Shown piece after piece: positions 13,601 to 58,795 of a DNA stretch of 64,000 nt. How positions within the stretch are numbered: position 1 is the stretch's first letter; each line of letters starts with the position of its first letter. The stretch lies in assembly GCA_019454045.1 (NCBI GenBank), contig SKCR01033664.1:144255-208254 (forward strand), given 5' to 3'. This DNA is from Zanthoxylum bungeanum. Its lineage: Eukaryota; Streptophyta; Magnoliopsida; Sapindales; Rutaceae. Both the position numbers and the translations under genes were made by a program. The notes under the pieces were generated by a model. That model worked only from the letters and a program-made list of their open reading frames with translations, was not told the DNA's origin and did not search any database.

Positions 13601-16600
13601 TTTTTTTGTATTATCTTTAATTTTATTTTTATCTACTGATAATTTTATTTTCTTTTCCTATTTTTTCTTTTCGGCTCGACAGACTCCTGCTTTTCTTTTC
13701 TCTTCTAATTTTTTCTTTTCATTCTTATTATCCCACCTGTCTTTTTTATTATTAAATTTTATTACTATCAACTGTTGCAATTATCAACTGTTTTTTTTTA
13801 TTATTCCCTTTTCTTTATCAACAGTTGCTACTGTTGTGGTAACAACGGTAGGCAGTAGCAGCAGTGTGCAGCTAATGCGTAATTTTTTTATTTTTGTTAT
13901 TATGAACTAATATTAATATGAATCTTTGTTATGACTTCAGGATAACATGGGCTCAAGTACGGGTTCCAGTGAGTCAAGAAAAGATCTTGCATGTCAATAT
14001 TCAACTTTGGTAAACCCAACTAATAAGAACAACTTGAAGTGTAATTTTTGTGGAAAAGTTTCAAATGGAGGAGTGTATCGAATGAAACAGCACCTTGTTG
14101 GAGGGTGTCAAAATGTAACTGGTTGTACAAAATGTCTTGCTATTCGTGAAGAAACAGTGATCGAAAAAGCGCCACTAGTTCCTCCGGGTGCGAACGAAAT
14201 TGGATCACTTTTGAGGGGGTAAATATTTAACATTAATTAAATATTTGATTATTTTATTTTTTAATTATTAATATTAATTGATTTATTTAAATTATTTATG
14301 TAGATTCACACGAAGAAAATGAATAGGCTAAATGTGAATCGATTAAATAATCTAATTTTTGTTTTCTTTAATGCCAAGTTGCAGAACAAGCACAAAAGGG
14401 AGAAGGATATGAAATTAGATGTATTACTCGCAAAAGATGTTAGTAATGCACAAGGATGGATAGTTGAGGGTGGTGAATTTGGTGATGATGAAGAAGTAGA
14501 GCCCGGTTCGGGGCTTACTTGGAGGATGGTTAGAGAAGCATCTGGGGCAAATGAAATGTTACAACCTCGGAAAAGCGCTAGGAATGCTGAAAACTGAGAA
14601 CTTGATGAAGAAGATTTTGATTCTGATGAAGAACCTAAGGATAATGAGTTTGAACCGGATGAAGAAGAATTAGTAACTTTAACTTTGTTAAAGGACGAGG
14701 AACTTTAACTTTAACTCTAATTTTGGACTGATGTTTGATGGATTGACTAGAGATTTTGATGTTTGATATGGTTGATTGAGTTTGGATTTTATATTTTATT
14801 ACATTTTGATTGAATTTATATGATTTGGATTATTTATGATGTTGGAAAATATTAGGTTTTAACTGTTTGCCGACTAATTTCCTAGGCGTTGGGTCGTCGC
14901 CCGACTAGCACCTAGCGTGTTTTAGAACACTGTGAAGAAATTACAAACGTGTTGAAAAAACGGCGATGAGCAACGAGGAGAAAGAGAAATAATTAATGTA
15001 CATGGATAAGGAGTTAGGGTATGGTGATGAAGAAGATGTAGGTATTGAAATTAATGGTATGGTGATGAAGAAGATGTAGGTATTGAAATTAATCACAGTG
15101 GAAAAAGAATTACATTAGGAAGTTCTAATTTTGTTTCAAAGAGGAAAAATGCAAAGCAAAAGGGTCTGCTTCACTTGTTTTTTACTCCAACAACTGATGG
15201 TGGGAAAAGGCCAAGAGATGGGAAGATCCAGCAAACATCGATCAATTAGGCATATAAGAAAGAATTAAGGGGAAGAGTTTGTGAAGACGTTGCTAGGTGG
15301 ATTTATAATTAGGGTGTGCCTTTCAATTGTGTCAAGCATCCAACTTTTAAGGGCGATGATTGAAAATATAGGACAATATGGCCCTAGAATGAAACCTACG
15401 AGTTACCATGAGGTAATGGTGCCTTTATTGAAAAAGGAAATTGCCCACACTCAAGATTTGATGAAGAGTCACGAAGAGGAGTGGGTAAAATATGATTGCT
15501 CCATTATGGCGGATGGGTGGACTGATAAAAAGCACAAGACCTTGATTAATTTCTTGGTCAATTCACCCAAAGGATATGTATTCATTGAATCAGTTGATGC
15601 TTCAAGTTATCCCCCCACTAGAGAAGCAATGTTTTCGTTACTTGATAACATTGTGAATCACATATTGTCATAGACAACAATGCATCACATAATATTATAG
15701 CTAGTTAGTACTAAATCATTTATATAATTCATATTTCATTTTTATTTTTATTTTTAGAAACTTGTTTAATAATTTAATATTTTAATCTTTTATCCAACAA
15801 TAGCCTACAAAGGCCACCTTCATAACTATCTTCTTAACCTAGCATTTTTTGGCCACTAATCTGACCATGATGAGATTTAATCAAATCTATAGTCTAGACT
15901 TAACTGGTTAACAATCAATTTAGCATTGCAGCTGGACATTATTGGAGCAATGACTTTAAAATTATCATTGCCTTGATAAGCGTTTTAGTACAGCCAGAGT
16001 ATATGGTATTTCCTTACCTAGTTAGAGGGCTGCATAGAGTAATTGACCACAAGGTTGTTAAAGGCGAGAGGGCATGAGGCGATCAGAGCCAGAAAAGCGA
16101 GGCGCGAAGCGGGGGCGCAAGGCGCACCCTCACAGCGAGCACGTTTATAATAATAATTTAATTGTAATAATGCATTATTAACTTGTAAATATAAAAAAAA
16201 TAGTAATAGATAATAATATTTTGATTATACTCTACTTTTATATTACTTTTACTTGTCTATTCATCTACTTGACAAAATATGCACAGTTCAAAACTTCAAA
16301 TCAAGAAATAAAAAAACAAGCGTAATTAAAAATATGCATAGTTCAAGTTCAAGAAAAGAAAAACAACAGCATAAAAAAAACATCTGCTGAAAAAATAAAC
16401 TGAAAAATAATCGTTAATAAAGAAAATATAAAAAAAAGAATCGTAGATAAAGAAATGTAAAAATAAAGAAAAAATATGAAAGAAACAAAGCTAAAAAAAA
16501 TTCAAAAAAAAGAATTGTAAAAGAAAAAAGAAATACAAATGTAAAAGAAAGATTGTAAATAAAGAAAATGCCAAAAAAAAAAAAAAAAAAAGAAAGAAAC

Positions 16601-23261: not shown

Positions 23262-26200
23262 ATCTCCCATTTGGCCTATAGACAATCACTCAAGTGTCCA
23301 ACACCTGAACTATGTACGGGTCGCTCATGTTTTTCTGAGATATCGCTTTCGTCCGCGGATATGTAAGGTTATCATCTGAAACGATCTTGTCGATCTCGAC
23401 ATCGCTACGATGTATGATCTGACGAATCAGATGAAACCATCGAAGTACATACTTGGATCACTGATGAGACCGTAATTCTATAGCCTGTGATGTAACCCAG
23501 CTCAGCTGCTAACAGAACTACTCCTAATCCAATTAGGAATTTTATAGATCCAAAATGCTTCTTTTGCTGCCTCAGCCGCAACAATATATTCCGCTTTTGT
23601 TGTTGAATCGGCAACATTATCTTGCTTGGAAGATTTCCAGCTCACTGTTCCATTGTTCAAACAAAATATGTACCCTTATTACGACTTATAGTCGTCTTTA
23701 TCGGTTTGGAAACTTGCATTGGTGATCCCAGTCACCTCAAGTTCTCAATCTCCATAAATTAAGAAAGCATCCTTAGTTCCTCTAAGATACTTAAGGATGT
23801 TCTTAACATCAATCCAGTGACCATCACCTGGATTGGCCTGATTGTGACTCCACATGCTCAAAGCATATGAGACACCGGGTCGCGTACATGTCTTTCAATG
23901 TACGAGTTCTCGGAGAGTGCCAACAAATTTTAGATCTATCCCAGTAGATCTTGATTCCTAGAATAAAGGTTGCATCTCCCAAGTTTTCATGGAGAATTTT
24001 AATGAAAGCCAAGCTTTCATCGATTTAAATATGGGATTTTCATTGCTAAGAATCAATACATCATCAACGTATAAGACAATCATTGTCAGTGCGCACCCAC
24101 TAACCTTCTTATATACACAAGAATCATCATCGTTTTGAATGAAACCATATATTATTATGATCTCATCAAAACGTTGGTTCCAAGAATGCAATGCTTGCTT
24201 CAGTCCACAAATGGATCGATTTAACTTGCAAACCTTGTTTGCATGTTTTGGCACGATAAAATTGTCTTGGTGTTGTATAAAACATCCTCCAAAAGGTTTC
24301 CATTAAGGAGAGCAGTTTTGACGTCCATCTGCCATATTTCATAATCGAAATATGCAGCTTTAGCAAGCATTGTCCGAATGGATTTAAGCATGGCAACGGG
24401 TAAAAGGTTTCGTCGTAATCGATACCATGTTGATGACGATACCCTTTCGCTACAAGCCTAGCTTTGGACGTTTGTATGTTGCCATCCATGTCAGTCTTCA
24501 CCATGAAGACCCATTTGCTACCAATAGGCACAATGCCTTTTGGTACATCAACTAGTGTCCAAACTTGGTTGTATACATGGAATCCATTTCGGACTTCATG
24601 GCACTTTGCCATATAGTGGAGTCGATACCTTGTATCGCTACCTCAAACGTAGCCGGCTCATTATCCACAATAAGATTAATATCTTCATGAGGTGAGATCA
24701 GAAACCCATATCTCTTAGGTTGTTTTCTGACTCTCTCCGACCTACGCGGTTCTTGTGTATATAGAAGATTATGGAACAGTCTCATCCCTGATGAACTGTT
24801 CATGTTCCGTGAGGGGATCGGTGCCAGGAACAGTATTACTCCGATTTTCATCGAGTTCTACTTTCCTCCAATTTACCACTGCATTTAGGAATTCCTCTAA
24901 GGAAAACCGCATGGAGAGCAACAAATATTTTTGTTCTCTTGTGGGTTGTGGAAATTGGTTTCCCTAGGATAACCAATTACAAATAGGCATTTATCCGATT
25001 TAGGTTCTAGTTTGGTACCATCCAAACATTTAATTATATGCCCAGCATCCCCAAATCTTCAGGAATGAGAAACCTTGTTTCTTTCCTGTCCATATTTCAT
25101 ATTGAGTCTGTCCAACAGACTTTGTTGGAACCTTATTCAAAATAAGTATTGCACTTTTCAATGCGTATCCCGTGACTGAAATTGGTAGCTCAATGCGACT
25201 CATTATTAACCTTACCATGTCCAACAAAGTTCGGTTTCTCCGTTCAGACACATCACTCAATTGAGGTGTTTCGAGAGGAGTCCAATATGAAAGAATACCA
25301 TACTCTTTCAAGTAATCTTGAAACTCATTGCTTAAGTATTCTACACCACGGTCCAACCGCAATATTTTTTATACTTTTACCGGTCTGTTTTTCTACTTCG
25401 TGTCGAAACTCTTTGAATTTATCAAAAGTTTCCGATTTGAGTTTCATAAGATACACATAACCATAACGCGATGTAACATCCGTAAAGGTTACGAAGTATT
25501 CATATCCACCTCTAGCTTGGCTAGATATGGGCCCACTACGTCACCATGAACGAGGGCTAACAGCTCGATGGCACATACATATTTACTGCTAAAAGGCGTT
25601 TTAAGCACTTTACCTAATAAACAAGATTCGCAAACGTCATATGAATTAGGATCAAATCTGTCCACGTATCCACTATTCGAAAGTGTGGATATACGAGTCT
25701 TGTTAATGTGTCCCAAACGACAATGCCACAAATAAGTCTCATCTGATTTACTCAGTTTGAGCTTTTGTTTGTCATGTTATATGTTTGAGATTCATTTATA
25801 TTCTAAATATAAACACTGTTATTCACATCTAATGTGTATATCTCAATATCATCTTTATAAACAAAACACCCAGTGTTCTGGAACATAAAGATTTACCCGC
25901 AATGGGTTAAACTAGATATAAAGATAATGTTTGTAGTCAAACTAGGTACATTATAACAGTTTCCTAATTTAAGTACATGCCCAAAGGGCAGTTCCAAAAC
26001 TTAGGTTTCCACAGCCAAAACAGTGACTCTCATCCCATTTCTGACTCGCAGGTCGATCTCATCTGAAGCCAGTCTCCTGCTAATAAGCAGATCTCGCACA
26101 TCAATAAATATGTATGTACCACATCCAGTATCAAAAATCTAATTTTTAAAACCAGTAGTGGACACGTTTATTACAATAACAAACATACCTGAAGTCGGAG

Positions 26201-26444
26201 CCTTGCCCGCCTTCACTTCCTTCATGTCTGCCTTGTCCATACGGCAGTCACGCTTCCAGTGACCCCGTTTGCCACAGTTTAGGTAGACATCTTGGGATAT
26301 GTCATTTGTCTTCCAAGAAGACTATGACGATTTTGCCTTTGCCTTTTTTCTTCAAACCCAGAAGCCTTCGGCCAAGCCTTGGCCTTCTAAGATGCCGAAG
26401 TAAGATGCCTCTTGTGCTTCTTGCCCTTTTGGAAGCTCTGGCTC
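23262..26444 (-). pseudogene. Decayed copia pol and gag 3' part (internal 1)
   Basis: Read on the minus strand from right to left: zinc knuckle (about 26241-26285), DSG-type protease region (26110-26160), GAG pre-integrase (25489-25731, HCRLGH and CESCLLGK), integrase core (25030-25362, SERRNRTLLDMVR and GYAL), reverse transcriptase (23958-24612, including KWVF, KARLVAKGYRHQHGIDYDE and YVDDVL), and RNase H (23520-23660). Stops and frameshifts separate all domains. The first zinc-knuckle Cys is Tyr. Cannot encode a working polyprotein. Confidence 0.88.
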
Positions 26445-26699
26445 TGATGAGTGGTATTTATATCACTATTTTCCACTAATCTAACCTAATATTTTGTATA
26501 GTTTCTCGGGTTTTGTGAACGTTTTGATGTGATTTGTGTTATTTTGCAGATAAATAAAGTTGGGGAAGCATTGGAAGCAATTTGGGGCCAAAATAAAGAA
26601 AAAAATGACAAAAGGGCAATTCGGTAATTTTCCAGCGTTGCGACGCCTAGACCTTCAGCGTCGCGACGCCTAACTTGTGCCGGACATGCTAACGTGCGC

Positions 26700-26945
26700 C
26701 AAGGGACACGTGTCAGAATCTGAGAAATTGGACTTGCTAACGTGCGCCGATCTTGCTAACGTGCGCCGGATGCCACGTGTCATCATCACAGAAGATATGC
26801 TAAAATGCGCCGTGTCGAAATCTCATTGGACCAAAGCAAGCGCGTGCCACGTGTCAATCTCTCATTGGACCGAATATTGGACAAATCACATGTTGCCACG
26901 TGTCGACCTCTCATTTGACCGATCCTAAGCGCGTGCCACGTGTTA
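26700..26945 (+). promoter_or_regulatory. G-box/CCAAT array in the LTR U3
   Basis: Five exact CACGTG motifs (26707, 26774, 26848, 26897, 26937), mostly in the form GCCACGTGTC, alternate with CTCATTGGACC words that contain an inverted CCAAT box. The array is part of a loose tandem repeat. CACGTG is the core bound by plant bZIP and bHLH factors (ABRE/G-box). It lies about 180-420 bp upstream of the TATA box. Confidence 0.7.
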
Positions 26946-27122
26946 ACTTTTCATTGGACCGAAAAGCCAGCCAATTATCGTGCGCCGCGTGTCGTCTTCT
27001 GATTGCGCCGCTCTGTCGCGTGACACATGTCACCTCCTGATTTTGCCGACATCATACGCGTGGTCAAACTGCGTAGACCAGATACGCGTGCTGGCGTCGC
27101 GACGCCATAAGCCGATTTTGCC

Positions 27123-27129
27123 TATAAAT
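27123..27129 (+). promoter_or_regulatory. LTR TATA box
   Basis: TATAAAT in 'gcctataaattcaggc', conserved at the same place in the 3' LTR and, in complement, at about 56983-56989. Transcription probably starts some 30 bp downstream. Confidence 0.6.
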
Positions 27130-27410
27130 TCAGGCCTTCTTCACTTCATTTGGTGTGCTTTCCTTGGGAGCTTTTCCCTGTTTTTAGAGGATTGCATCTA
27201 GTTTTTGTAAATATAAATAATATTTAATTTATGTATTTTAATTTTCAGTAATAATAATAGTTCTTGTTCTTCTCTTTTCTTTTATGTTTTGTAGTTAAAT
27301 TTCTGTTGGGGTAAAAGGTGAAATATTTAATATAATTATCTAGGTAAATCTCACTTAACTATAATTTATAAATTATAATTTAACCGGATTAATTAATGTC
27401 AGACTTTATT

Positions 27411-27549
27411 ACCGCCTATATGGTCGGGTTAAATATAAATTACTTTACCACCTATATGGCTGGTCTTTATGTGACAGATAATTACCGCCTATATGGCTGG
27501 TGTAGTTGGACTAAATGGATTACCGCCTATATGGCTGGTTTTAAATGTT
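27411..27549 (+). repeat. Array of four short hairpin repeats in the LTR
   Basis: The 18-19 bp unit ACCGCCTATATGGCTGGT occurs at 27411 (variant), 27447, 27484 and 27532. Its ends are complementary (ACCGCC with GGC-TGGT), giving a short stem around a TATAT loop. It lies downstream of the predicted start site, so it would be in the transcript. Confidence 0.7.
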
Positions 27550-28395
27550 TAACATTATTAATTCGTGAGAAAGCAGAACATAAAATAATTTATATATTAT
27601 AATAAGTGAGATTCCTAGATAAGAAATATTAAATGTGGATCCTCTAACCCCATCATTTTATTTTATTCTAGGGAAGTGATGAAACACAATATTCACACTT
27701 AATAATTGATTTTCTTTTTATTGGTAATTCTTTAGTTTGTTTATTGAGTCTTAAGCTTAATGCTTCTTGTTGTCTGATCACCAATAAGATTGATTTGGTA
27801 AACTTAAAATGAACTAGACATATGGATTTTAGGTTTCAGCCTTAGATTCAATAGCCCACGATCTTCCTTGAGGATAGATAACCCTTTAATAGATTTCCTT
27901 ACATGATAGACATATACCTGTCAGGCGGGGGTAACCACAATTGGAACTTGATCTTAATGAATCCAGGTAATTTGGTTGACATAGATATATGGTTCAATTG
28001 GGTTATACTGGGTATTTGCGCCTGACCATCGACATAGGCTTTTGCATAATTTCGTGTTCCAGGTTAGCAAACTGATTTATTACACATAGATAAGAGAATC
28101 AATTCATCTTTATAATAATATTGTGTGGAGTCACGACCCTAGATCTTTGAGTCTTTTCTTTTATTTTCCTTAGTATTTTCTTTTGAGTCTGTTTTTATTT
28201 TTATTAGCAAATCCACATTCAACCTACCAAAAGCAATCGATTCCCTTCTCTCTATAATTAGATACATGTAAATAAATAGTATCAATAATTAATAACAACA
28301 GTATGAATTAAGTTTTCGTGGGATCGATATTTTTATACTACTTGAACAATACGTGCGCTTGCGTTATACGTGTGTGTTTACGCCGGTCAAGTTTT

Positions 28396-28414
28396 TGGCG
28401 CCGTTGCCAGGGAC
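28396..28414 (+). other. Primer-binding site, tRNA-Asp type
   Basis: TGGCGCCGTTGCC plus 'aggga', six bases after the LTR end, is complementary to the 3' end of plant tRNA-Asp with one mismatch. This is the PBS class of Athila-like and related gypsy elements. Confidence 0.8.
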
Positions 28415-28525
28415 TTATTTTTCTTGAGTTATTAATTTTGAAGTTATCTAATTTACTTGTATCTAATTTTCTTTATTTTTATCTGCAATTTTTATCTCTT
28501 TCTTTTGTTTGCAGGTGATTGAAAA

Positions 28526-29803
28526 ATGAAACATTATTGGGATATTGAGAGATCACGAGCTTTACTAGAAGATACACCCCAAATCTGGGAGCAATAGTCC
28601 GGTTTTCTGAGGCCTGTTGACCAGCCCAACAACTATCACTGGATGTCAGAATCAAGCAATACTACATTTGCTCATCAGAACGAAATGGGGAGATGTGTGA
28701 TTTATGATGGTAACCACCCGAGCGATCAATGCATATACTTTTCAGAGTGGCAGAATTATCAGAATCATTCAAGGTACGAAGAACCATCATATTTTCCATC
28801 TCATCCACCATCTACCTTCGATTTCCATCAACAATCAGAACCATCAGAATAAGATCAGATGATTGACATGCTCAAAGATTGGTTCAAGAAACGAGACGAA
28901 GAGTTGGATACGATGCTTGAAACATATCAGAATCAACTTGAAAGTATTCAGAGACAATCAGCATCCATTTAGAGACTGACAGAACAAACGAGACAATTAA
29001 CAGAAAACCAGAGCTACATACCTCAAGAAGCATTTTCAGACGAAACTGACGGAGCCTTCGAGTACCAAGCATTTCACGATGACACTTTAGCAGAGGAAGA
29101 GGCTGAGCAATATCAGGAATCTGAGGTATCAGTTCAGGAACCCAAACCAGCGAAGTCTCGATTTGACTTTTATTATTCAGATTCTGACTCTGATGAAGAA
29201 GCTGAGCTATTTGTACCAACTGCACCAACAAATGAGGATGGAATTCTGTATTCTCAAAATGAAGATCTCGGAGACTGTTTTGCACTGATGTTTGAAGAAG
29301 ATCTACCTGAACCATCCATTCCAGTCATATCAGAGAATGAAGACCTAAAATCTGACATTTCTTTTCATCCTCAGATTGACACTTATGGAGCATGTTTTTC
29401 ACAGATGACAGATGAAGAACTGAACGCGGAAATCCTAAAATACATATGTGAAGAAAAAGTGGAGCAAGAAACAGAGAAAATGGAGGAGCAATTATCATAC
29501 CAAATTGAAGATCCAGAGCATTCAGGCGAAACATCATTGTTTTGGGGAGTACAATTTAGAGATATCACCCAGAAGCTTGACAGAATGGAACTCCCATTCA
29601 AATTCAAGCACCATACGAGACCTCCTGATTTTCTTTCTTTCTTTTCAGGAACCACTGGAGCAATAAAGATTAAAAAGGTGGCACGAGCACTGAATGGGAC
29701 AAAATTCTTTTTGCCCATTTACCGTTGGAAGAGACCCTTCAAAAGCAACGCACATGGGAATGTCTTTAATAGGACATCCAAAACGATGCTGAAACCTCAT
29801 TGA
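28526..29803 (+). pseudogene. Degenerate gag-like reading frame of the LOG-carrying element
   Basis: A single reading frame runs from the ATG at 28526 to 29803 with only three in-frame stops (about 28594, 28850 and 28969). The protein is acidic and rich in Q, E and S. Near the start it has C-V-I-Y-D-G-N-H-P-S-D-Q-C, a zinc-knuckle-like motif known from Tat/Athila gag regions (the second Cys is replaced by Tyr here). The C-terminal third is more basic (RWKRPF). I do not recognise the central part. The uninterrupted last section, 29288-29803, could still be translated alone. Confidence 0.55.
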
Positions 29804-30322
29804 CAATGGATTTCAGTCACGTCTGGCTGAAGATGAAAAATTTAGCGCTAGCAGGGAGGCAACCCATGCAATTTGTTGTAATTTCTATTTTCATATTTTA
29901 TGTATTCATGTTGTAGAATTTTTTAATTTTTTGTGTTATTTTTATAGGGAAAAGCTCAACCAAAGCATAAGACAGAAGGAATGGTGTTTGACAAAGAAGA
30001 AAGCTAATTCATTTGTGATGGCTGAGTAAGGAATGGATTCTTGAGACGCATCCTAATGAATTTATACTAAGCGAATGGTGTATTGCGTACACAATTCCGT
30101 TGCCTTAATTATTGCTTTGATTTGCTTTTCTGTTGTAATTATCTTTATTTTCATAGACAAGATCCAGACTTTTTGACCTTTCACAATTTCTTTTGTTGTT
30201 TAGCTAATACCGTCCTTTGGAAGATACTAGTGCTATTATTACTCACTCTTTTCAGGTACTATAAATTCAGCCCGTCATTGCACTTTTGAAGGCATCCAGA
30301 TTTGAGAAAGAAATATATAAAA

Positions 30323-30976
30323 ATGGAAGCCACTTCAAGAAGACGAGTTGAAAACATCTGTGTGTTTTGCGGTACTAGTGTTGGTACTAAGCCACAATAC
30401 GTAGAGGCAGCACATGAATTGGGTCGAGTCTTAGCTGCAAGGAATATGCACTTAGTATATGGCGGAGGCAATCTTGGACTAATGGGGATCGTTTCAAAGG
30501 CCGTACAGGAAGGAGGCGGTCACGTTTTGGGAATCATCCCAAAACCCTTGGCGGAGGCAAATCTTATTGGATCATCAAACGGAGATGAACTTATTGTGCC
30601 AGGTATGTCCGAGCGACTAGTGGAAATGATTAACTGTTCTGATGCTTTTATTGCTTTGCCAGGTGGCTTGGGCACATTGGAGGAAATTTTTATAGTGTTA
30701 TCTTGGGCGAACTTGAACATACACCAGAAACCAATTGGGCTGTTTAACATAGATGAATTTTATGATTTTCTTTGTGTGTTTCTTGATGATGCCCGGAGAA
30801 ATGGGTTCGTGTCAAAACCTATGAAAGAACTCATCTATACTGCCAGAACTGCTCCGGATCTAATAGACCAACTCTTAGCCTATGAACCACAAGTTGACCA
30901 TATCCTTTCAAAGATAAATTGGTCCGAGGACGATCATGGTAAGAGGCGTCGGATTAATCTGGATCTTAACTTTTAA
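30323..30976 (+). CDS. LOG-like: LOG-type cytokinin riboside 5'-monophosphate phosphoribohydrolase, carried by a retroelement
   Basis: Enzymes of this family release active cytokinin base from its ribotide in the cytosol. The intronless frame has 217 codons from the ATG at 30323, close to the normal family length. Visible motifs are ICVFCG (12-17), the nucleotide-binding YGGGNLGLMG (46-55), R98, and the catalytic PGGLGTLEE (113-121), so the PGGxGTxxE signature is complete. The helix that usually reads HQRKAEM has SERLVEM, keeping Arg and Met but not Lys, so it belongs to a divergent branch. The C-terminus adds KRRR (207-210) and ends LDLNF. Host LOG genes normally have several introns, so this is probably a captured cDNA. 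A possible acceptor (TTTTCAG at 30250-30256) precedes it. It sits downstream of the gag-like frame in the slot between the pol end and the 3' LTR. Activity is an inference. Confidence 0.9.
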   Translation: MEATSRRRVENICVFCGTSVGTKPQYVEAAHELGRVLAARNMHLVYGGGNLGLMGIVSKAVQEGGGHVLGIIPKPLAEANLIGSSNGDELIVPGMSERLVEMINCSDAFIALPGGLGTLEEIFIVLSWANLNIHQKPIGLFNIDEFYDFLCVFLDDARRNGFVSKPMKELIYTARTAPDLIDQLLAYEPQVDHILSKINWSEDDHGKRRRINLDLNF

Positions 30977-31060
30977 TTTTCTGTAGAATTTCAGCTAACC
31001 AGGTTTTATCTTCTAAACTATTCTTCTACTGTTTAAGACATTGGGGACATTGTCTGATTT

Positions 31061-31076
31061 AAGTTTGGGGGAGGGA
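31061..31076 (+). other. Internal polypurine tract downstream of LOG
   Basis: AAGTTTGGGGGAGGGA follows the 'acattggggacattg' block, a pairing that is characteristic of Athila/Tat elements upstream of the 3' region. A second tract lies at the LTR border. Confidence 0.55.
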
Positions 31077-31518
31077 ATTAGTTGATCAGTACCTTGTTTT
31101 TAGTTTGTGTGTTATTTTTATTTTTAGTCCAAATTTTTTCGAAAAATACAAAAAAATTGAAAATTTTTCAAAAATTACAAAAATATTTTACGTTTTTGTG
31201 TTTTTATTTTGACTAAAAAAGTGAAATTGGTAAGAGATAGTTGTGTAAGGAATTTCCACTCATGAGACGTATCTCAAACCTATTTCGGAACAAGTTAATT
31301 TTTGTTTATTTCCTTTTGAATTATTTAATTTGTGAATTCTCCAAAATACTGACTAAAATGGATCTTCATATGCTAAGTTGGCAGATATTATCAATATACA
31401 TAGTAACATACGGACATGAGCTGTAATTGAAAAGTTTGTAATATTTAGTGCTCTAGTTTAATTGGAGGAAACATCTCAAAAAGTGATGGAGTAAAAAAAA
31501 AAAATCTGAGATCCGAGT

Positions 31519-31740
31519 TATTAAGTCTGTAAGGGTGTTTTAACACCTAGTGCCCTAAAGCCAACTTGTTTGGGAGTCACTGGCCCAAATCTCGCTACAT
31601 GGATCAAAGATGCTGCAAAAATATATATATCTGAAGTCTTAGTAATTAAGTCCGTAGGGGTGTCTTAACACCTGGTGCCCTAAAGCCAACTGGTTTGGGA
31701 GCCACCGACCCAACACTCGTTACATAGATGGAAGATATTG
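31519..31740 (+). repeat. Two imperfect 125 bp direct repeats
   Basis: Units start 'ttaagtctgta' (31521) and 'ttaagtccgta' (31646) and share 'taacacctagtgccctaaag' and 'gggagccac' blocks. The region lies between LOG and the 3' LTR and shows no coding potential. Confidence 0.7.
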
Positions 31741-32278
31741 TATATAAATAAATAAATAAAAATCAAAGAAAAAATCAGAAAAATGAGAAAAATTATTCCA
31801 TTGCTACAAAAAGGTGTGAAATCTGATAGAACTTTAGGACAAAAATATTACTCTCTTATCAACTACATTTGTGACTGTTGTGGGCAAAAATGAGTTAATT
31901 AATATTTTGTTGGCTGTGTATATGGAGAATGGAAAATATAATCGGAGAATTTACTTATTTAGTAATTTAGAAAGAAACAAAACAACTAGTAACTTGGAGT
32001 AGAAATTTCACCTGATTAGTCACTGACTTCTTTATTCTATTTTCGCTTGTCTTTTTGCTTTTGTGTGCATTAGTTTCACTACATTTTTACTTTTGTAAAA
32101 TGTTTGTGGGTATCATTGTTGTAAACCCTCACGAGACTACAACTCATCCACTAGGAACACCTAGGGGTTTAAAGGCTTGTTGCATACGCTAAATGCAACC
32201 GTGATCCCTACGAAAGTGGCTTAGTTAATTTTATTTTTGTTATTTTATTTTATGTTTTGCTCGAGGACTAGCAAAATG

Positions 32279-32293
32279 TTAGGTTTGGGGGTG
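32279..32293 (+). other. Polypurine tract at the 3' LTR
   Basis: 'ttaggtttgggggtg' directly precedes TGATGAGTGG. The upstream 'gctcgaggactagcaaaatg' block is also present, in complement, beside the deleted relative at 57731-57780. Confidence 0.7.
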
Positions 32294-34224
32294 TGATGAG
32301 TGGTATTTATATCACTATTTCCCACTCATCTAACCTAATATTTTGTATAGTTTCTCGGGTTTTGTGAACGTTTTGATGTGTTTTGTGTTATTTTACAGAT
32401 AAATAAAGTTGGGAAAACATTGGAAGCAATTTGGGCCAAAATAGATAAAAAAAATGACAAAAGGGCAATTCGGTAAATTTTCAGCGTCGCGACGCCTAAC
32501 GTGCGCCAGACATGCTAACGTGCGCCGAGGGACACGTGTCAAAATCTGAGAAATTAGACTTGCTAACATGCGCCGATCTTGCTAACGTGCGCCGGATGAC
32601 ACATGTCATCATCATAGAAGATCTGCTAAAATGCGCCGGCTGCCACGTGTCGAAATCTCATTAGACCAAAGCAATCGCGTGCCACGTGTCAGTCTCTCAT
32701 TGGACCGAATATTGGACAAATCACATGTTGCCACGTGTCGACCTCTTATTTGACCGATCCTAAGCGCGTGCCACGTGTTAACTTTTCATTGGACCGAAAA
32801 GCCAGCCAATTACCGTGTGCCGCGTTTCACCTTCCGATTGCGCCACTCTGTCGCGTGACACGTGTCACCTCCTGATTGTGCCGACATCATACGCGTGGTC
32901 AAACTGCGTAGACCAGATACGCGTGCTGGCATCGCGACGCCAGAAGCCGATTTTGCCTATAAATTCAGGCATTCTTTACTTCATTTGGTGTACTTTCCTT
33001 CGGAGCTTTTCCCTGTTTTTAGAGGATTGCATCTAGTTTTTGTAAATATAAATAATATTTAATTTATGTATTTTAATTTTCAGTAATAATAATAGTTCTT
33101 CTTCTTCTCTTTTCTTTTATGTTTTATAGTTAAATTTCTGCTGGGGTAAAAGGTGAAATATTTAATATAATTATCTAGGTAAATCTCACTTAACTATAAA
33201 TTATAAATTATAATTTAACCAGATTAATTAATGTCAGACTTTATTACCGCCTATATGGTCGGGTTAAATATAAATTACTTTACCGCCTATATGGCTGGTC
33301 TTTATGTGACAGATAATTACCGCCTATATGGCTGGTGTAGTTGGACTAAATGGATTACCGCCTATATGGCTGGTTTTAAATGTTTAACATTATTAATTTC
33401 TGAGAAAGCAGAACATAAAATAATTTATATATTATAATAAGTGAGATTCCTAGATAAGAAATATTAAATGTGGATCCTCTAACCCCATCATTTTATTTTA
33501 TTCTATGGAAGTGATGAAACACAATATTCACACTTAATAATTGATTTTCTTTTTATTGGTAATTCTTTAGTTTGTTTATTGAGTCTTAAGCTTAATGCTT
33601 CTTGTTGACTGATCACCAATAAGATTGATGTGGTAAACTTAAAATAAACTAGACATAGGGATTTTAAGTTTCAGCCTTAGATTCAATAGCCCATGATCTT
33701 CCATGAGGATATATAACCCTTTAATAGATTTCCTTACAGGATAGACATATACCTGTCAGGCGGGGGTAGCCACAATTGAAACTTGATCTTAATGAATCCA
33801 GGTAATTTGGTTGACATAGATATATGGTTCAATTGGGTTATACTGGGTATTTACGTCTGACCATCGACAAAGGCTTTTGCATAATTTCGTGTTTCAGGTT
33901 AGCAAACTGATTTATTACAGATAGATAAGAGAATCAATTCATCTTTATAATAATATTGTGTGGAGTCACGACCCTAGATCTTTGAGTCTTTTCTTTTATT
34001 TTCCTTATTATTTTCTTTTGAGTCTGTTTTTATTTTTATTAGCAAATCCACATTCAACCTACCAAAAGCAATCGATTCCCTTCTCTCTATAATTAGATAC
34101 CTGTAAATAAATAGTATCAATAATTAATAACAACAGTAGGAATTAAGTCCTCGTGGGATCAATATTTTTATACTACTTGAACGATACATGCGCTTGCGTT
34201 ATACGTGTGTGTTTACGCCGGTCA
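32294..34224 (+). repeat. 3' LTR of the LOG-carrying element
   Basis: 1931 bp, ending GCCGGTCA before the GGCTC duplication. It repeats the U3 G-box array (about 32530-32780) and the hairpin array (33246-33374). The TATA box is at about 32959. Confidence 0.93.
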
Positions 34225-34229
34225 GGCTC

Positions 34230-39671: not shown

Positions 39672-42600
39672 ATGACTGGAAAGTTAAGCATTAGGGATAT
39701 TGTCATGGGCGACAACGTCTTTAATGGCAGAAACTTTCAAGACTGGGATATGAATCTCAGAATTGTTCTGGGATCTGAGAAGTTACTCTATACTATAGAG
39801 CGACCTATTGGGCCTAAGCCCCGACCTGATCAGTTGCTTGAGCTAGAGCTTTGGAAGACTCATAGCGATGATAATACAACTGCTCAATCGGTAATGCTTG
39901 CAGCTATGACTCCGTAATTCCGTCGTCAAAACAAGGGGTTGGATCCCTATGAGATGATGGCGAAGTTGCACGATCTCCACCGATCTAACCTTAGATCGCA
40001 AAGATACGAGTTGTAGAAGAAGCTCTTATGCGCTCGAATGTCAGAGGGTACGTCTGTTGAGCATCATGTCTTAGAGATGATTGCTGACATTGAGCAGCTC
40101 GGACAGATGGGCATAGTCTTCGAGGCTGAGACTTCAGTAGATTTGATCCTACAGTCTCTCCCCGACACTTGGAGTGGGTTCATCATGAACTACAACATAT
40201 TGAACTAAGACCAAACTCTTGGAGAGTTGATGTCCACTCTGCGTGAGGCAGAAAATGAGCTCCTTAAGGGCAAGAAGCGCGAGGCGCACTATGCTTCAAC
40301 ATCTCAGACTCCGAGGGCTTGGCCCAAGGCGACTGGAGGTGTTAAGAAAAATAAGCATAAGAAGAAGGGCAAGGCCAAATCGTCAAAGGGTTCTCGGAAA
40401 CCCAAGGACAAATCCCAAGATGTATGCTTGCAGTGCGGGAAGCGGGCTTCACTGGAAGCGTGACTGCCGCGAGTATAAGGCACACATGAAGGAAATTAAA
40501 GCAGGCAAGACACCAGCTTCAGGTATGTTTGTTATAGAAATAAACATGTCTACTTCTAGTTTTAAAAATTGGATTTTTGATTCTGGTTGTGGTACTCACA
40601 TATGTACTGATGTGCAGGATCTTCGGATTAGCAGGAGACTGGCCTCAGGAGAGATTGACCTCCGTGTTGGAAATGGGACTTGAGTTGCCGTTTTGGCCGT
40701 GGGCACTTATGTTTTGGAACTGCCCTCGGGGTATGTACTTGAACTTAAAAACTGTTATTTTGTACCTAGTTTGACTAGGAATATAATTTCTGTATCTATG
40801 TTAACCCAATGTGGGTATACTTTTGTATTTAGAAACACCGGGTGTTTTATGTATAAAAATGATATGGAAATTTGCACAGCTGATGCAAATAATGGTCTTT
40901 ATATTTTGAATATAAATCAATCTCAAACACATAATGTAACAAACAAAGGCTTAAAGTAAGTAATAAAGATGAAACTTATATGTGGCATTGTCGTCTGTGA
41001 CACATAAAAAAGACACGTATATCCACACTTTCGAAGAGTGGGTACTTGGACGGATTTGATCCAAATTCATATGACGTCTGCGAATCTTGTTTATTAGGCA
41101 AGATGCCTAAATCACCTTTTAGCGGTAAAGGTGTACGTGCCACCAAACTGTTAGCCCTTATTCATGGTGACGTTTGTGCGTCCATGTCTAGCCAGGCTAG
41201 AGGTGGATATGAATACTTTGTAACCTTTACGGATGATGCATCGCATTATGGTTATGTGTATCTTATTAGACACAAGTCAGAAACTTTTGAGAAATTCAAA
41301 GAGTTTTGACACGAAGTAGAAAAAGAGACCGGCAAAAGTATTAAGACATTACGATCGGACCATGGTGGTGAATACTTAAGCAATGAGTTTCTTGATTACT
41401 TGAAAGAATATGGTATTCTTTCACAGTGGACTCCTCCTGGAACACCGCAATTAAACGGTGTGTCCGAACGGAGAAATCGAACTTTGTTAGACATGGTGAG
41501 GTCTATGATGAGTCGCACAGAGCTACCTATTTCCTTCTGGGGATATGCATTGAACAGTGCAATACTTGTTTTGAATAAGGTTCTGTCAAAGTCTGTTCAA
41601 CAGACTCCATATGAAATATGGACAGGAAAGAAACTGGGTTTCTCATTCCTGAAGATTTGGGGTTGCTGGGCATACGTCAAACGTTTGGAAGGTACCAAAC
41701 TAGAACCCAAATCGGATAAATGCCTATTTGTAGGATATCCTAGGGAAACCAAATGATATTACTTCTATCACCCATAAGAGAACAAAATATTTGTTGCTCT
41801 ACATGCGGTTTTCCTTGAGAAGGAATTCCTAAATGCAGTGATAAGTGAGAGGAAAGTAGAACTCGATGAAAATCAGAGTGATACTGTTCCTGGCACAGAA
41901 TCCTTAACGGAACATGAACAGTCCATCAGGGATGAGAATGTACCACAATCTTCGAATACACAAGGACCGCGTAGGTCGGAGAGAGTCAAAAACAACCTGA
42001 GAGGTATGGGTTTCTGATCTCACCTCATGTGGATATTAATCTTATTGAGGAAGACGAGCCGGCTACGTATGAGGAAGCGATACAAGGTATCGACTTCGGT
42101 TTATGGCAAGATGCCATGAATTCCGAAATGGATTCCATGTACACCAACCAAGTTTGGACACTAGTTGATGCACCAGAAGGCGTAAAGCTTATTGGATGCA
42201 AATGGGTCTTCAAGAGGAAGACCGACATGGATGGCAACATACAAACGTACAAAGCTAGGCTTGTAGCGAAAGGGTATCGTCAATGACATGGTGTCGATTA
42301 CGATGAAAATTTTTCACTCGTTGCCATGATTAAATCCATTCGCATAATGCTTGCTATTGCTGTATATTTCGATTACGAGATATGGCAGATGAACGTCAAA
42401 ACCGCTTTCCTTAACGGAAACCTTATGGAGGATGTTTATATGCAACAGTCTGACGGTTTTGACGTACCAAAACTTGCAAACAAGGTTTGTAAGTTAAATC
42501 GATCCATTTATTGATTAAAGCAAGCATCGCGTTCTTGGAACTAACGTTTTGATGAGATCATAAAAGAATATGATTTCGTTTAAAATGAATATGATCCTTG

Positions 42601-43633
42601 TGTATATAAAAAGGTTAGTGGGAGCGCACTGCCATTCATTATCCTTTACGTTGACGATGTATTGCTTATTGGCAATGACATTCCCATGTTAACATCGGTG
42701 AAAGCTTGGCTTTCATTAAAATTCTCCATGAAAGATCTGGGAGAAGCAGCCTTTATTCTAGGAATAAAGATCTACCGAGATAGATCTAGAAAGCTGCTTG
42801 GACTCTCCCAGAGTACGTACATTGACAAAGTGTTGAAGAGATTCAACATGGATCAGTCCAAGAGGGTATTGTTGCCAGTGTCACATGGCGTCACTCTATC
42901 TAAGGACATGTGTCCTAAAACTCAAGATGAGAGAGACAACATTAGTCGGATACCGTTCACCTCGGCAGTCGGATCGATCATGTATGCCATGATATGTACG
43001 GGACCTGATGTCTCTTATGCTTTGAGCATGTGTAGTCGCTATCAGGCCGATCCAGGTGAAGGTCACTGGATGGCGGTTAATAATATCCTTAAGTATCTTA
43101 GAAGAACTAAGGATGCTTTCTTAATCTATGGAGATTGAGAACTTGAGGTAACTGGGTATACCGATGCAAGTTTCCAAACCGATAAAGACGACTGTAAGTC
43201 GCAATCCGGGTACATATTTTGTTTGAATAACGGAGCAGTAAGTTGGAAATCTTCCAAACAAGAGACTGTTTCCGATTCAACAACAGAAGCGGAGTACATT
43301 GCTGCAGCTGAAGCAGCAAAAACGGCATTTTGGATCCATAAATTCCTAATTGGATTAGGAGTAGTTCCGTTAGCAGCTGAGCCCGTTCCATTGTATTGTG
43401 ACAATAACGGGGCTATAGCACAGGCTAAGGAACCATCGTCTCATCAAAGATCCAAGCATGTTCTTCGAAGTTTCCATCTGATTCGTGAGATCATACATCA
43501 TGGCGATGTGAAGATCGAGAAGGTCGCATCAGATGACAACATAACAGATCCGTTGACGAAAGCTATTCCTCAACAAAAGTTTGAGCGACATGTACATAGT
43601 TCAGGTATTAGATGCTTGAGTGACTGGTTATAA
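39672..43633 (+). pseudogene. Ty1-copia gag-pol, disabled by stops and frameshifts
   Basis: Gag starts at 39672 (MTGKLSIRDIVMGDNVF) and breaks at 39915. The zinc knuckle (about 40420-40475) is split by a frameshift after CLQCGK. Protease region NWIFDSGCGTHIC follows near 40570. GAG pre-integrase is at 41046-41309, integrase at 41330-41756 (TPQLNGVSERRNRTLLDMVR, then YALNSAIL), reverse transcriptase at 42029-43138 (KWVFKRKTDMDG, AFLNGNLMEDVYM, YVDDVLL), and RNase H at 43150-43633 (DSTTEAEYIAAAEA and YCDNNGA). The RNase H section (43223-43633) is intact. Stops at 40683, 41309, 41756, 42286, 42514 and 43138 are mostly TGA. The lineage within copia (Tork/TAR/Angela group) is not certain. Confidence 0.92.
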
Positions 43634-55584: not shown

Positions 55585-57730
55585 TGACCGGCGTAAACAC
55601 ACACGTATAACGCAGGCGTACGTATCATTCAAGTAGTATAAAAGTATCGATCCCACGAGGACTTAATACCTAAGCTATTAATTTTATGAGGTCAAATGAT
55701 TACTAGTATCTAACAGGTTGTTTAATTGATTTGAAATAGCGACGATTCTAAATTTAAAGACAAGTAAATAAAATTGTTCGAAAGTAGATTTTAAAAATCT
55801 ATCTAGGGTTGTGATTTCTTTGCAATATCATTTTAAAGATGAAGTGGTTATCTTATAGTTGGGTAAAATATTGATTTATTAACCTGGAACACTAATTATG
55901 TGAAAGCCTCTTCCGATGGTCAATTACAAATACCTAGTATAATCCAATTGAACCATATGTCTATGTCAACCAAATTACCTAGATTCATTAAGATTAAATT
56001 CCAATTATGGCTACCCCCACCCGACAGGTATATTCCTATCCTGTAAGGAAATCTATTAAAGGGTTATCTATCCTCAAGGAAGATCGTGGGCTATTGAGTC
56101 TGAGGTATTAAACTTAAAATCCCTATGTCTAGTTCATTTTAAGTTTACCTAGTCAATTTAATTAATGGCCAGTTAATTAAAAAGTATTAAGATTAAGACT
56201 CAATAAATAAATCCTTATATTACCCAAATTATAATCTAACCCCTTATAAACCGGTGATATTGAAAGTCATCACAACCCCAGATACTAATTTAGTTACGAC
56301 ACATATATAGGGTTGGTAAAATAAAAGACATAAAATGCTGAAAGTAATTGCGGTAAAGTAAATATTGAAAGGTAAATTACAATAAAATAAATGCTAAGGT
56401 AAAAGGAATTACTTTTACTACTACTAATTTAGATATCTCCCATAAAATAATATATAAACTTGTGATAATATTACCAACCAACCAATCTGGCGGTATCCTG
56501 ATTAAGTCAAATTAAGTCCAACCAGCCATTAAGGCGGTAATATTTGTCCATAACCAGCCATAAAGGCGGAACCAAAATTAAATTACCAACCGACCAATCT
56601 GGCGGTATCCTTGATTAGTCAGGTTTAAACTAGATTAAAATTAAATTACCAACCGACCAATATAGCGGTATCCTTTTTAAGTCAAATTTTAAATAGTGAA
56701 TATATTATTTTTAAGGGAGATTAATCTAAATAGCATTAGTAAAAGAATTACCTTTCACCCTAGCAGGAGGAAGTTACCTCATCATGGTGAATAGTAAAAA
56801 TTGTAAAAAGTAAAAGGTAAAAATAAATTACTATTACTATTCAAAAGTAAAATTACTATTATTACAGAACGTAATTAAAATTACAAAACTAAATTAAAAG
56901 AAATTTAGAGAGAGAAGAACTCCCTATTTACATCAAAGAAATGGGAGGGAGAGGTACAACAAAATCTGAAATCTCGAGCTCAATTTATAGGCGCGGATAA
57001 GCTCCTGGCGTCACGACGCTGGAGCCTTTGGGTCGCGACGCTGGAACAGTGAGTCGTGGCATGTTCTCGGCTTGACACGTGGTGATTCGGATAAGAGGAT
57101 AAGGCGACACGTGGCGAGGCGGCTAAGAGCTCAATTATTATGTTGACGTGGCGATGACGTGGCAAGGCGGCTGAGATCAATTGTCGGCACCGTAGGATTG
57201 TGACACGTGTCAAGGCGTGATTGGCTGATGATGACGTGGCATGTTGACTCGATTGACCTTCTGACGTGGACGATGACGTGTGGCAAAGTTGACTCGTTGA
57301 CCGATGATGTGGCGATGACATGGATGACACGTGGCACACGTGGCAATTGTGAGTGTCGGCACCATAGGATGATGACACGTGGCACGGTGCACGTTAGTAG
57401 CTCGGCTGTGATGGTGACACGTGGCACGGCGCATTTTAGCAAAGTCAAACTTCTCAAATTCTGACCCGTTGACCCGGAGCATATTAGCAGATCTGGTGCA
57501 CGTTAGGCGTCGCGACGCTAATGACTTGGGCGTCGCGACGCGGACAATTTACCGAAATGCCCTTTTTGCCAATTTTTCCTGTTTTGCTCAAAATCACCTC
57601 CAGAATGTCCTGAAACTTTATTTATCTATAAAATAACACAAAACACATCAAAATATTCACATAACTCAAGAAACTATACAATATATTAGGTTAAATGAGT
57701 GAGAAATAGTGATAGATTTACCACTCATCA
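55585..57730 (-). repeat. Full LTR of the deleted Tat/Athila-like element
   Basis: 2146 bp, the complement of TGATGAGTGG...GCCGGTCA. Longer and clearly diverged from the LTRs at 26445 and 32294. It has a TATA box at about 56983-56989, many CACGTG motifs in 57070-57430, GCGTCGCGACG palindromes near 57510-57540, and a five-unit hairpin array at 56472-56672. Confidence 0.88.
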
Positions 57731-58146
57731 CACCCCCAAACCTAACATTTTGCTAGTCCTCGAGCAAAACATAAAATAACATAAATAAATTAACTAAGCC
57801 ACTTTCGTAGGGATCACAGTTGCATTTAGCATATGCAACAAGCCTTTAAACCCCTAGGTGTCCCTAGTGGACGAGTTGTAGTCTCGTGAGGGTTTACAGC
57901 AATGATACCCACAAATATTTTACAAAAGTAAAAAAGTATTAAAACTAATGCACACAAAAGCAAAAAGACAAGCGAAAAGAGAATAAAGAAGTTAGTAACT
58001 AATCAGGTGAAACTTCTACTCCAAGTTACTAGTTGTTTTGTTTCATTCTAAATTACCAAATAAGTAAATTCTCCGATCATTTTTACCATTCTTCATAAAC
58101 ACAGCCAACATAATATTAAACAACTCATTTTTTGCCCACAGCAGTC

Positions 58147-58795
58147 ATAAGAGGATAAGGCGACAAGTGGTGAGGCGGCTAAGAGCTCAATTATTATGCT
58201 GACATGGCGATGACGTGGCAAGGCGGCTGAGATCAATTGTCGGCACCGTAGGATTGCGACACGTGTCAAGGCGTGATTGGCTGATGATGACGTGGCATGT
58301 TGACTCGGTTGACCTTCTGACGTGGACGATGACGTGGCACGACGCGTGGCAAAGTTGACTCATTGACCGATGACGTGGCGATGACATGGATGAAACGTGG
58401 CACACGTGGCAATTGTGAGTGTCGGCACCGTAGGATGATGACACGTGGCACGGTGCACGTTAGTAGCTCGGCTGTGATGGTGCACGTGGCACGGCGCATT
58501 TTAGCAAAGTCAAACTTCTCAAATTCTGACCCGTTGACCCGGCGCATGTTAGCAGATCTGGTGCACGTTAGGCGTCGCGACGCTGATGACTTGGGCGTCG
58601 CGACGCGGACAATTTACCGAAATGCCCTTTTTGCCAATTTTTCATGTTTTTCTCCAAATCACCTCCAGAATGTCCTGAAACTTTATTTATCTACAAAATA
58701 ACACAAAACACATCAAAATATTCACATAACTCAAGAAACTATACAATATATTAGGTTAAATGAGTGGGAAATAGTGATAGATTTACCACTCATCA
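58147..58795 (-). repeat. Truncated second LTR (U3 part only)
   Basis: Matches 57091-57730 and ends in ACTCATCA at 58795. It repeats the G-box array. R and U5 were lost in the internal deletion. Confidence 0.85.

Follow-up and report, generated by a model that had tools for sequence, protein, structure and literature searches.

A LOG-derived gene with a changed substrate pocket is under purifying selection in a retroelement family of Zanthoxylum bungeanum

A long terminal repeat (LTR) retroelement at positions 26445-34224 of a 64,000-nucleotide (nt) stretch of Zanthoxylum bungeanum DNA (assembly GCA_019454045.1, contig SKCR01033664.1, forward-strand positions 144,255 to 208,254; the whole stretch is called the window hereafter) shows no recognisable pol and carries a complete frame for a LOG protein, a family known for activating cytokinins. 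Is this frame a passenger, a hormone enzyme in the service of a mobile element, or something else? A sequence-only reading of the locus had taken it for an intact cytokinin-activating gene with all signature motifs, kept open while the element's gag-like frame acquired three stops; its further idea, that the element spreads cytokinin capacity or favours dividing cells, is speculation. The LOG frame was found to be a trait of the retroelement family, conserved by purifying selection and altered at the substrate pocket in all 64 copies read. On the explanation that we favour our judgement is evenly divided: a LOG-derived accessory protein with changed nucleotide specificity, borne here by a deletion derivative of a high-copy, recently moving family.

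The window copy by itself cannot carry a case for selection. When the stops expected since insertion were calculated from the LTR substitution spectrum, assuming an 80% share of deamination among transitions, 0.59 were expected in the window LOG, which leaves a probability of 0.55 that it has none. For the gag-like frame the expectation was 1.87, with a probability of 0.29 for three or more. The contrast between an intact LOG and a gag-like frame with three stops thus has no weight in this copy, and an argument for selection based on it alone was rejected, both counts lying within chance. The case for selection must therefore come from other copies.

The genome from which the window comes (3.96 Gb, 51,709 contigs) was searched for LOG copies. 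With the window LOG protein as query, at least 150 places matched at 91-100% protein identity over at least 214 residues; among the matches listed, 131 of 150 had no stop and 19 had one, counted by eye. A 110-residue AtLOG3 query returned at least 150 further places, one of them with a stop in that stretch among the matches listed, and two places shared by the lists were noticed by eye rather than counted by script. The 64 copies read comprise the window's own, those in 20 loci of 10 kb (labelled below as L092 and the like), one upstream neighbour, three more and 40 LOG-only stretches; the three were drawn from loci of the first search, the rest of which repeat copies already read. LOG is followed by the 3' internal region of the window element and the start of its LTR in 18 of the 20 loci (the exceptions are L096 and L108), a fraction that gives no share of family members carrying LOG, the loci having been found through LOG.

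Cut at 654 nt, the 64 copies have ATG and stop codon in register, and six contain an internal stop. Their pooled pairwise ratio of non-synonymous to synonymous divergence (dN/dS; Nei-Gojobori method, NG86) is 0.189, with a codon-bootstrap interval of 0.137-0.265 that covers codon sampling only, the pairs sharing history; dS is 0.167. The ratio is 0.185 (44 copies) and 0.177 (20 copies) in the two lists obtained with different queries, and 0.198 in the 13 window-like copies alone. Restricted to the 11 window-like copies whose gag-like region is complete, the ratio was 0.195 for LOG and 0.52 for the gag-like frame, and the two wrong frames of LOG gave 0.62 and 3.06. Ascertainment by LOG query alone is unlikely to explain such low values, because the copies differ from the window LOG by a mean of 17.6 and a maximum of 21 non-synonymous changes (43 copies), as compared to 93 expected if dN equalled dS. 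The sequence-only reading had named two findings that would refute it, absence of LOG from other family members and neutral evolution of the frame; other members carry it, in the 18 loci just described, and with a dN/dS of 0.19 over 64 copies it is not evolving neutrally. LOG is therefore a trait of the family, under purifying selection across it, and a one-off passenger is ruled out by the at least 150 places, the 18 of 20 loci with the element's 3' region, and dN/dS.

The selected protein is a type-I LOG by fold, by its matches to PF03641 (E 3.5e-35) and TIGR00730 (E 8.7e-50), and by its catalytic Arg and Glu and PGGxGTxxE phosphate loop, present in the window copy as R98, E121 and PGGLGTLEE; against the NCBIfam equivalog NF058542 it scores 111 bits, where the cut-off is 300. 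The predicted structure (predicted local distance difference test, pLDDT, 86.8; predicted template-modelling score, pTM, 0.82) is confident in the core, and its pLDDT falls below 60 in block means over the last 27 residues. Its best match in the PDB is AtLOG3 (2a33), with a template-modelling (TM) score of 0.93 by target length and 0.74 by query length, and it is 41-48% identical to the three LOG chains aligned. In a viral structure library the best match, with a TM of 0.68 by query, came from Synechococcus phage S-CAM7 and is itself a LOG family protein. R98 and E121 are each kept in 63 of the 64 copies, T118, G117 and W128 in all 64, and M95 in 63; overall, each of the catalytic residues, the PGGxGTxxE residues, M95 and W128 is found in 61 to 64 copies.

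The pocket is a different matter. Contrary to what had been claimed, not all signature motifs are present: in the window copy MHxRK reads MSERL, and the position of E125 reads I. In the numbering of CgLOG, the window residues S96, L99 and I124 correspond to H97, K100 and E125, three of the five residues that the available text of PMC4979012 proposes for the CgLOG prenyl site, K100 also binding adenine; the same text gives the three as identical in AtLOG3, OsLOG and CpLOG. An alignment was made of the window LOG, AtLOG3, AtLOG8 and 77 bacterial LOGs, the latter being those with both frame-picking motifs from 80 loci, many of them Pseudomonas, that were the best 80 of 588 by similarity to the window LOG. 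At the three positions both Arabidopsis proteins have H, K and E; among the 77 bacterial proteins H is found in 76, K in 77 and E in 77, and the full set M, H, R, K, E, E, W is present in 76 of 77. Among 44 near-invariant columns the window LOG keeps 39; its five deviations, N80 (for E), S96 (H), L99 (K), I124 (E) and N130 (Q), are more than in any of the bacterial LOGs, which have at most four. Three of the five fall among the five pocket columns (one-sided Fisher p 0.007, tested after the pocket changes were seen).

These replacements are shared. Within the adenine/prenyl pocket of CgLOG (M96, H97, K100, E125, W129), M is kept in 63 and W in all 64 copies, and H, K and E are replaced in 64 of 64: S in 63 and F in one, L in all, and I in 63 and V in one, the canonical residue appearing in none. 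Decay of the window copy is ruled out as the cause, since each of its five deviations requires at least two base changes and the pocket changes are common to other copies. In the accessible portions of two studies (PMC4979012 and PMC5379747), replacing the lysine by alanine cost CgLOG almost all and CgLOGII all of its phosphoribohydrolase activity with adenosine monophosphate (AMP) as substrate. Of the proposed intact cytokinin-activating gene, the open frame and the catalytic residues stand, while loss of H97, K100 and E125 puts the function in doubt, and judged by its residues the element LOG is a doubtful cytokinin activator.

Beyond the point where the alignments of AtLOG3 and AtLOG8 stop, the element protein has a basic tail. 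The C-terminus of the window copy is GKRRRINLDLNF, ending in LDLNF where most other copies have LDLNL; in most copies residues 205-217 are RGKRRRINLDLNL, K replacing R at 208 in 7 of 64 and V standing at 211 in 8 of 64. LxLxL, which we take to be an EAR repression motif, is present in 59 of the 64 copies and missing from the window's, and the KRRR run can presumably act as a nuclear signal. The tail is as conserved as the core (dN/dS 0.18 vs 0.19, 44 copies).

As to where the gene came from, a free tree placed the window LOG beside Caldilineaceae (support 93/74), on a long branch (1.16 changes per site, where the median is 0.3). When the window LOG was constrained to group with AtLOG3 and AtLOG8, the tree gained 6.68 log-likelihood units and was not rejected (p 0.68); a bacterial origin was accordingly set aside, and a plant origin is probably to be preferred, without being proven. 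Viral contigs yielded no relative with the window LOG as query and one, L081, with the alignment as query; L081 reads MHIRK.

The element that carries the gene consists of the following parts.

26440-26444, no strand: target site duplication GGCTC, left copy
26445-28389, plus strand: 5' LTR, 1945 nt, TGATG..GGTCA
28396-28413, plus strand: primer binding site TGGCGCCGTTGCCAGGGA, starting 6 nt past the 5' LTR
28526-29803, plus strand: gag-like frame with internal stops at 28595, 28850 and 28970, its gag kinship drawn through the frame of L092
29821-29876, plus strand: short stretch 87.7% identical (57 columns) to L110:8993-9049
30144-30300, plus strand: leader upstream of LOG, 81% identical to a pol-bearing relative
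30323-30976, plus strand: LOG-derived open reading frame (ORF), 217 residues, intronless
31064-31076, plus strand: internal purine-rich tract TTTGGGGGAGGGA, 3' of LOG, identified by reading
31493-31742, plus strand: tandem pair of 125-nt repeats, the two 79% alike, lying 3' of LOG and ahead of the 3' LTR
32282-32293, plus strand: polypurine tract GGTTTGGGGGTG, abutting the 3' LTR
32294-34224, plus strand: 3' LTR, 1931 nt
34225-34229, no strand: target site duplication GGCTC, right copy

With two LTRs, a target site duplication, a primer binding site and a polypurine tract, this is an LTR retrotransposon, much as the sequence-only reading had described it, down to the three stops in the gag-like frame and the complete intronless LOG frame. 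The LTRs, with ends TGATG..GGTCA, are 95.9% identical over 1922 aligned sites (Kimura two-parameter distance, K2P, 0.042); a rate of 1.3e-8 substitutions per site per year would date the insertion to about 1.6 million years ago. The primer binding site differs by one mismatch from TGGCGCCGTTGCCGGGGA, that of the pol-bearing relative (L110:3668), and tRNA-Asp is presumably the primer. Candidate splice acceptors, from a simple pyrimidine count, lie at 30155, 30202 and 30254, with no ATG between them and the start of LOG. Pfam found no retroelement enzyme domain in the internal pieces scanned, all of them from the forward strand, tblastn with the proteins of relatives found no pol in this copy, and Rfam and tRNA scans of the window returned nothing. 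The window's own gag-like pieces likewise had no match by Pfam or by tblastn with relatives' proteins; the frame is called gag-derived because a frame in L092, whose DNA is 83-89% identical to it, matches the gag-protease frames of other copies (33% over 124 residues, E 1e-10).

The claim that pol is missing holds for the window copy and fails for the family. The pol-bearing relative, covered by L100 and L110 on one contig, has gag-type frames, reverse transcriptase (RT) and RNase H, integrase, an ORF for a C4 zinc-finger protein, and LOG, between LTRs 96.4% identical; L110:8993-9049, the counterpart of the short stretch listed above, lies directly downstream of its integrase frame. Pfam recognised RT, RNase H and integrase in L100 and gag (PF03732) in L097 and L108; gag in L110 had no Pfam match and was found by tblastn with L097 only. 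The gag-protease part of L110 is split over several frames, so this element is called pol-bearing and not functional. Since RT, RNase H, integrase and the C4 ORF all precede LOG in one relative, the window copy is a non-autonomous deletion derivative of the family. The family is Ty3/gypsy, probably Athila-like: RT/RNase H before integrase, and gag, are seen in the relatives and not in the window copy. Twelve of the 20 loci are window-like, with a gag-like remnant (partial in L091 and L105) and LOG, and neither pol nor C4 ORF in the LOG-bearing element. In six (L097, L103, L104, L107, L108 and L109) gag, a gag-protease stretch, the integrase end and the C4 ORF were matched and RT was not, and one locus, L102, is partial. 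The six have similar spacing and are perhaps a second non-autonomous group. That LOG is kept in every element type follows from the construction of the sample.

LTR pairs could be aligned in 14 of the 20 loci, often in part, and gave K2P distances of 0.003 to 0.076, with six at 0.003-0.011. In a tree of LOG and its 3' flank, in which few branches are firm, the window-like copies do not form one clade (approximately unbiased test, p-AU 0.0002; 12 rows against 8, L096 omitted), which fits template switching. The window contains a second, LOG-less relative.

55585-58795, minus strand: truncated 5' LTR, last 420 internal nt and 3' LTR; target site duplication AAAAT

Its LTRs are 95.5% identical (646 columns). 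Over its last 420 internal nt this relative matches the LOG element at 92% identity, yet over the adjoining LTR at only 74-79%, with the boundary at the LTR start, which suggests LTR exchange by template switching. This relative shows that LOG can be lost.

The C4 zinc-finger ORF, of about 180 residues, lies between integrase and LOG in the relatives and includes GRSTYAKKRRAKQMGVCYKCARWNCNTRC in L100. Its coordinates in four loci are:

L100:4078-4662: C4 ORF
L097:4062-4646: C4 ORF
L103:5312-5911, minus strand: C4 ORF
L108:5316-5858, minus strand: C4 ORF

Five of seven proteins (L097, L100, L102, L103 and L108) exceed the Pfam gathering score for PF05515 and PF01623; the pieces of L107 and L109 match neither. 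The ORF has a dN/dS of 0.30 (8 copies, L107 in part) and no PDB relative at E 1, and is absent from the window copy by tblastn with relatives' proteins. Carlavirus proteins of the C4 type act in silencing suppression and cell proliferation.

How such a gene might serve the family can be sketched. In the pol-bearing relative the slot where Athila elements have env holds two accessory ORFs, for the carlavirus-like C4 protein and the type-I LOG derivative. LOG would have been captured from a spliced plant message. An LTR transcript spliced to an acceptor just upstream of LOG could express the protein, a LOG-fold dimer that would hydrolyse a nucleoside monophosphate with altered base preference rather than the usual cytokinin precursor. 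The tail would direct it to the nucleus and may bind a corepressor of the TOPLESS type, and template switching would pass LOG between pol-bearing and pol-less genomes. The fullest version of this scheme, offered tentatively and unlikely to hold in every part, is a nuclear accessory LOG-fold hydrolase of new specificity with a corepressor-type tail, which in concert with a virus-like zinc-finger protein would bend the host cell or the element's chromatin toward replication, LOG travelling in pol-less derivatives with borrowed RT.

Against these sketches stands the view that the protein, its pocket merely more hydrophobic, still works as a cytokinin riboside 5'-monophosphate phosphoribohydrolase, through which the element raises local active cytokinin. 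The AtLOG3 fold is there, as are the catalytic Arg and Glu, the PGGxGTxxE residues, M95 and W128 in 61 to 64 of 64 copies. Cytokinin activation still has a case because AMP was the substrate on which the effect of losing the lysine was measured and because active LOGs differ from one another in their prenyl-site residues (available text of PMC5379747), and a more hydrophobic pocket might still accept a prenylated base. We nevertheless consider it possible but unlikely, since H97, K100 and E125, shared by AtLOG3, OsLOG, CpLOG and nearly all of the 77 bacterial LOGs, are replaced in all 64 copies. The missing lysine, needed for AMP activity, would also suit a non-catalytic adaptor, a LOG dimer scaffold whose basic LxLxL tail might, for instance, draw corepressors to chromatin of the element or of the host; the tail is as constrained as the core (0.18 vs 0.19, 44 copies) and LxLxL is present in 59 of 64. 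This seems rather unlikely, as catalytic and phosphate-binding residues would then be free to drift and yet are kept (R98 and E121 in 63, T118 and G117 in 64 of 64). A question of origin cuts across these readings and is compatible with them, namely whether this pocket and tail had already arisen in an unusual host LOG paralogue, which the element then took up ready-made. The host LOG genes of this genome are not among the sequences seen, and the long branch of the window LOG (1.16 vs 0.3) would agree with it; selection, however, continues inside the element family, all but one of the 77 bacterial LOGs have the full M, H, R, K, E, E, W set, H, K and E are present in AtLOG3 and AtLOG8, and viral contig L081 reads MHIRK, and we regard such a capture as quite unlikely. 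Highly improbable is a neutral passenger that a single capture brought in, that multiplied with the family and that looks intact because its copies are mostly young. The absence of stops in the window copy is within chance (0.59 expected), some copies are very young and all were chosen through LOG, but dN/dS is 0.19 over 64 copies at a dS of 0.167, the gag-like frame reaches 0.52 where LOG stays at 0.195 in the same 11 copies, and 17.6 non-synonymous changes are seen where 93 are expected.

Several observations weigh against the accessory protein of changed specificity that we prefer, or against parts of its support. All copies used came through a LOG-type protein query, a sample that favours conserved LOGs with low dN, and the sole LOG met outside the queries is decayed. 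This partial second copy, L101:9564-9950, is cut by the locus end, and over 387 nt its identity is 88%. Two of its pocket positions still read S and L, but it has C at catalytic R98, T at I124 and a stop. L101 also contains pieces of other elements. The gag-like comparison is rough, with frames projected onto the window's frame: wrong frames of that region give 0.59 and 1.03 against 0.52 in frame, 27 stops were counted by this rough projection, and L092 was scored with one stop although 399 codons of its own frame are open. Regarding the pocket, the accessible text of PMC5379747 reports that CgLOGII kept AMP activity when three prenyl-site positions were changed to alanine and that prenyl-site residues vary among active LOGs, and that of PMC4979012 that MmLOG differs at the prenyl site. 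Pocket and tail could both predate capture, host LOGs being outside the sequences seen. LxLxL and the basic run are short motifs, and as repression motif and nuclear signal they are putative. Pfam matches to an aspartic protease in the relatives are all below cut-off, and the Athila placement draws on primer-binding-site type and coding slot only.

Most host genes known to have been taken up by plant LTR elements survive as dead fragments. A report by Steinbauerova et al. from 2011 is said to bear on LOG-type domains in such elements, and is cited in the Citrus study on the YgdH (LOG) domain. That domain occurs in Ty3/gypsy consensuses of Citrus sinensis and C. clementina (Alvarado-Marchena et al. 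2022, PMC9289625) and, with a looser filter, in Gypsy consensuses of Populus trichocarpa, so a LOG-type domain in plant Gypsy elements, as in the window family, was already known; the sections of that paper available to us contain no selection test, residue analysis, tail or neighbouring ORF. Open-licence literature, so far as its text was accessible, yielded no selection test, pocket analysis, tail (not sought by name) or C4 neighbour for a retroelement LOG; the accessible text of an aORF review (PMC7264820) and of the Retand paper (PMC11963269) has no YgdH or decarboxylase term, and that of a blackgrass paper merely names a PF03641 gene in a region. The variant with remodelled pocket, tail and C4 neighbour is new as far as we have seen. 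According to the parts available of PMC1142308 and PMC6317226, Athila, Calypso and Diaspora resemble the family in being Ty3/gypsy, in a primer binding site 5-6 nt from the LTR and in a coding slot between pol and the 3' LTR; Diaspora and Calypso have a tRNA-Asp site, with a 5-nt spacer in Diaspora. They differ in that the family's slot holds the C4 ORF and LOG instead of an env-like ORF, and in that the window copy has no pol. Orchid Gypsy elements with an AlkB-type RNA demethylase (PMC9289625, same sections) also keep a host-type enzyme across many copies, with activity shown in vitro; the element LOG differs in its changed pocket. The dUTPase of HERV-L (PMC1142308, as available) is likewise a nucleotide-metabolism enzyme in the slot between pol and LTR, but another enzyme, in another host kingdom, with another reaction. 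Plant LOG3 and LOG8 (2a33, 1ydh) and bacterial type-I LOGs share fold, catalytic Arg and Glu and PGGxGTxxE with the element LOG, which differs by H97S, K100L and E125I, by its basic LxLxL tail and by having no introns; peanut LOG genes have 2-6 introns in the text seen of PMC13257298.

The family LOG is present in many copies, is under purifying selection and differs from the LOGs read by shared pocket changes and a new tail, which opens neofunctionalisation within a retroelement to direct test. A protein that acts on cytokinin would give a transposon a hormone tool of its own; otherwise the family would illustrate a LOG scaffold turned to a new substrate or a regulatory role.

Elsewhere in the window, Ty1/copia reverse transcriptase pieces flank the element, among repeats with long inverted copies, and a DUF659 frame (E 8.4e-26) lies farther upstream; the latter we take to be, probably, a fragment of a hAT-type transposase.

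15269-15670, plus strand: DUF659 frame
24169-24642, minus strand: Ty1/copia reverse transcriptase piece
42584-43135, plus strand: Ty1/copia reverse transcriptase piece

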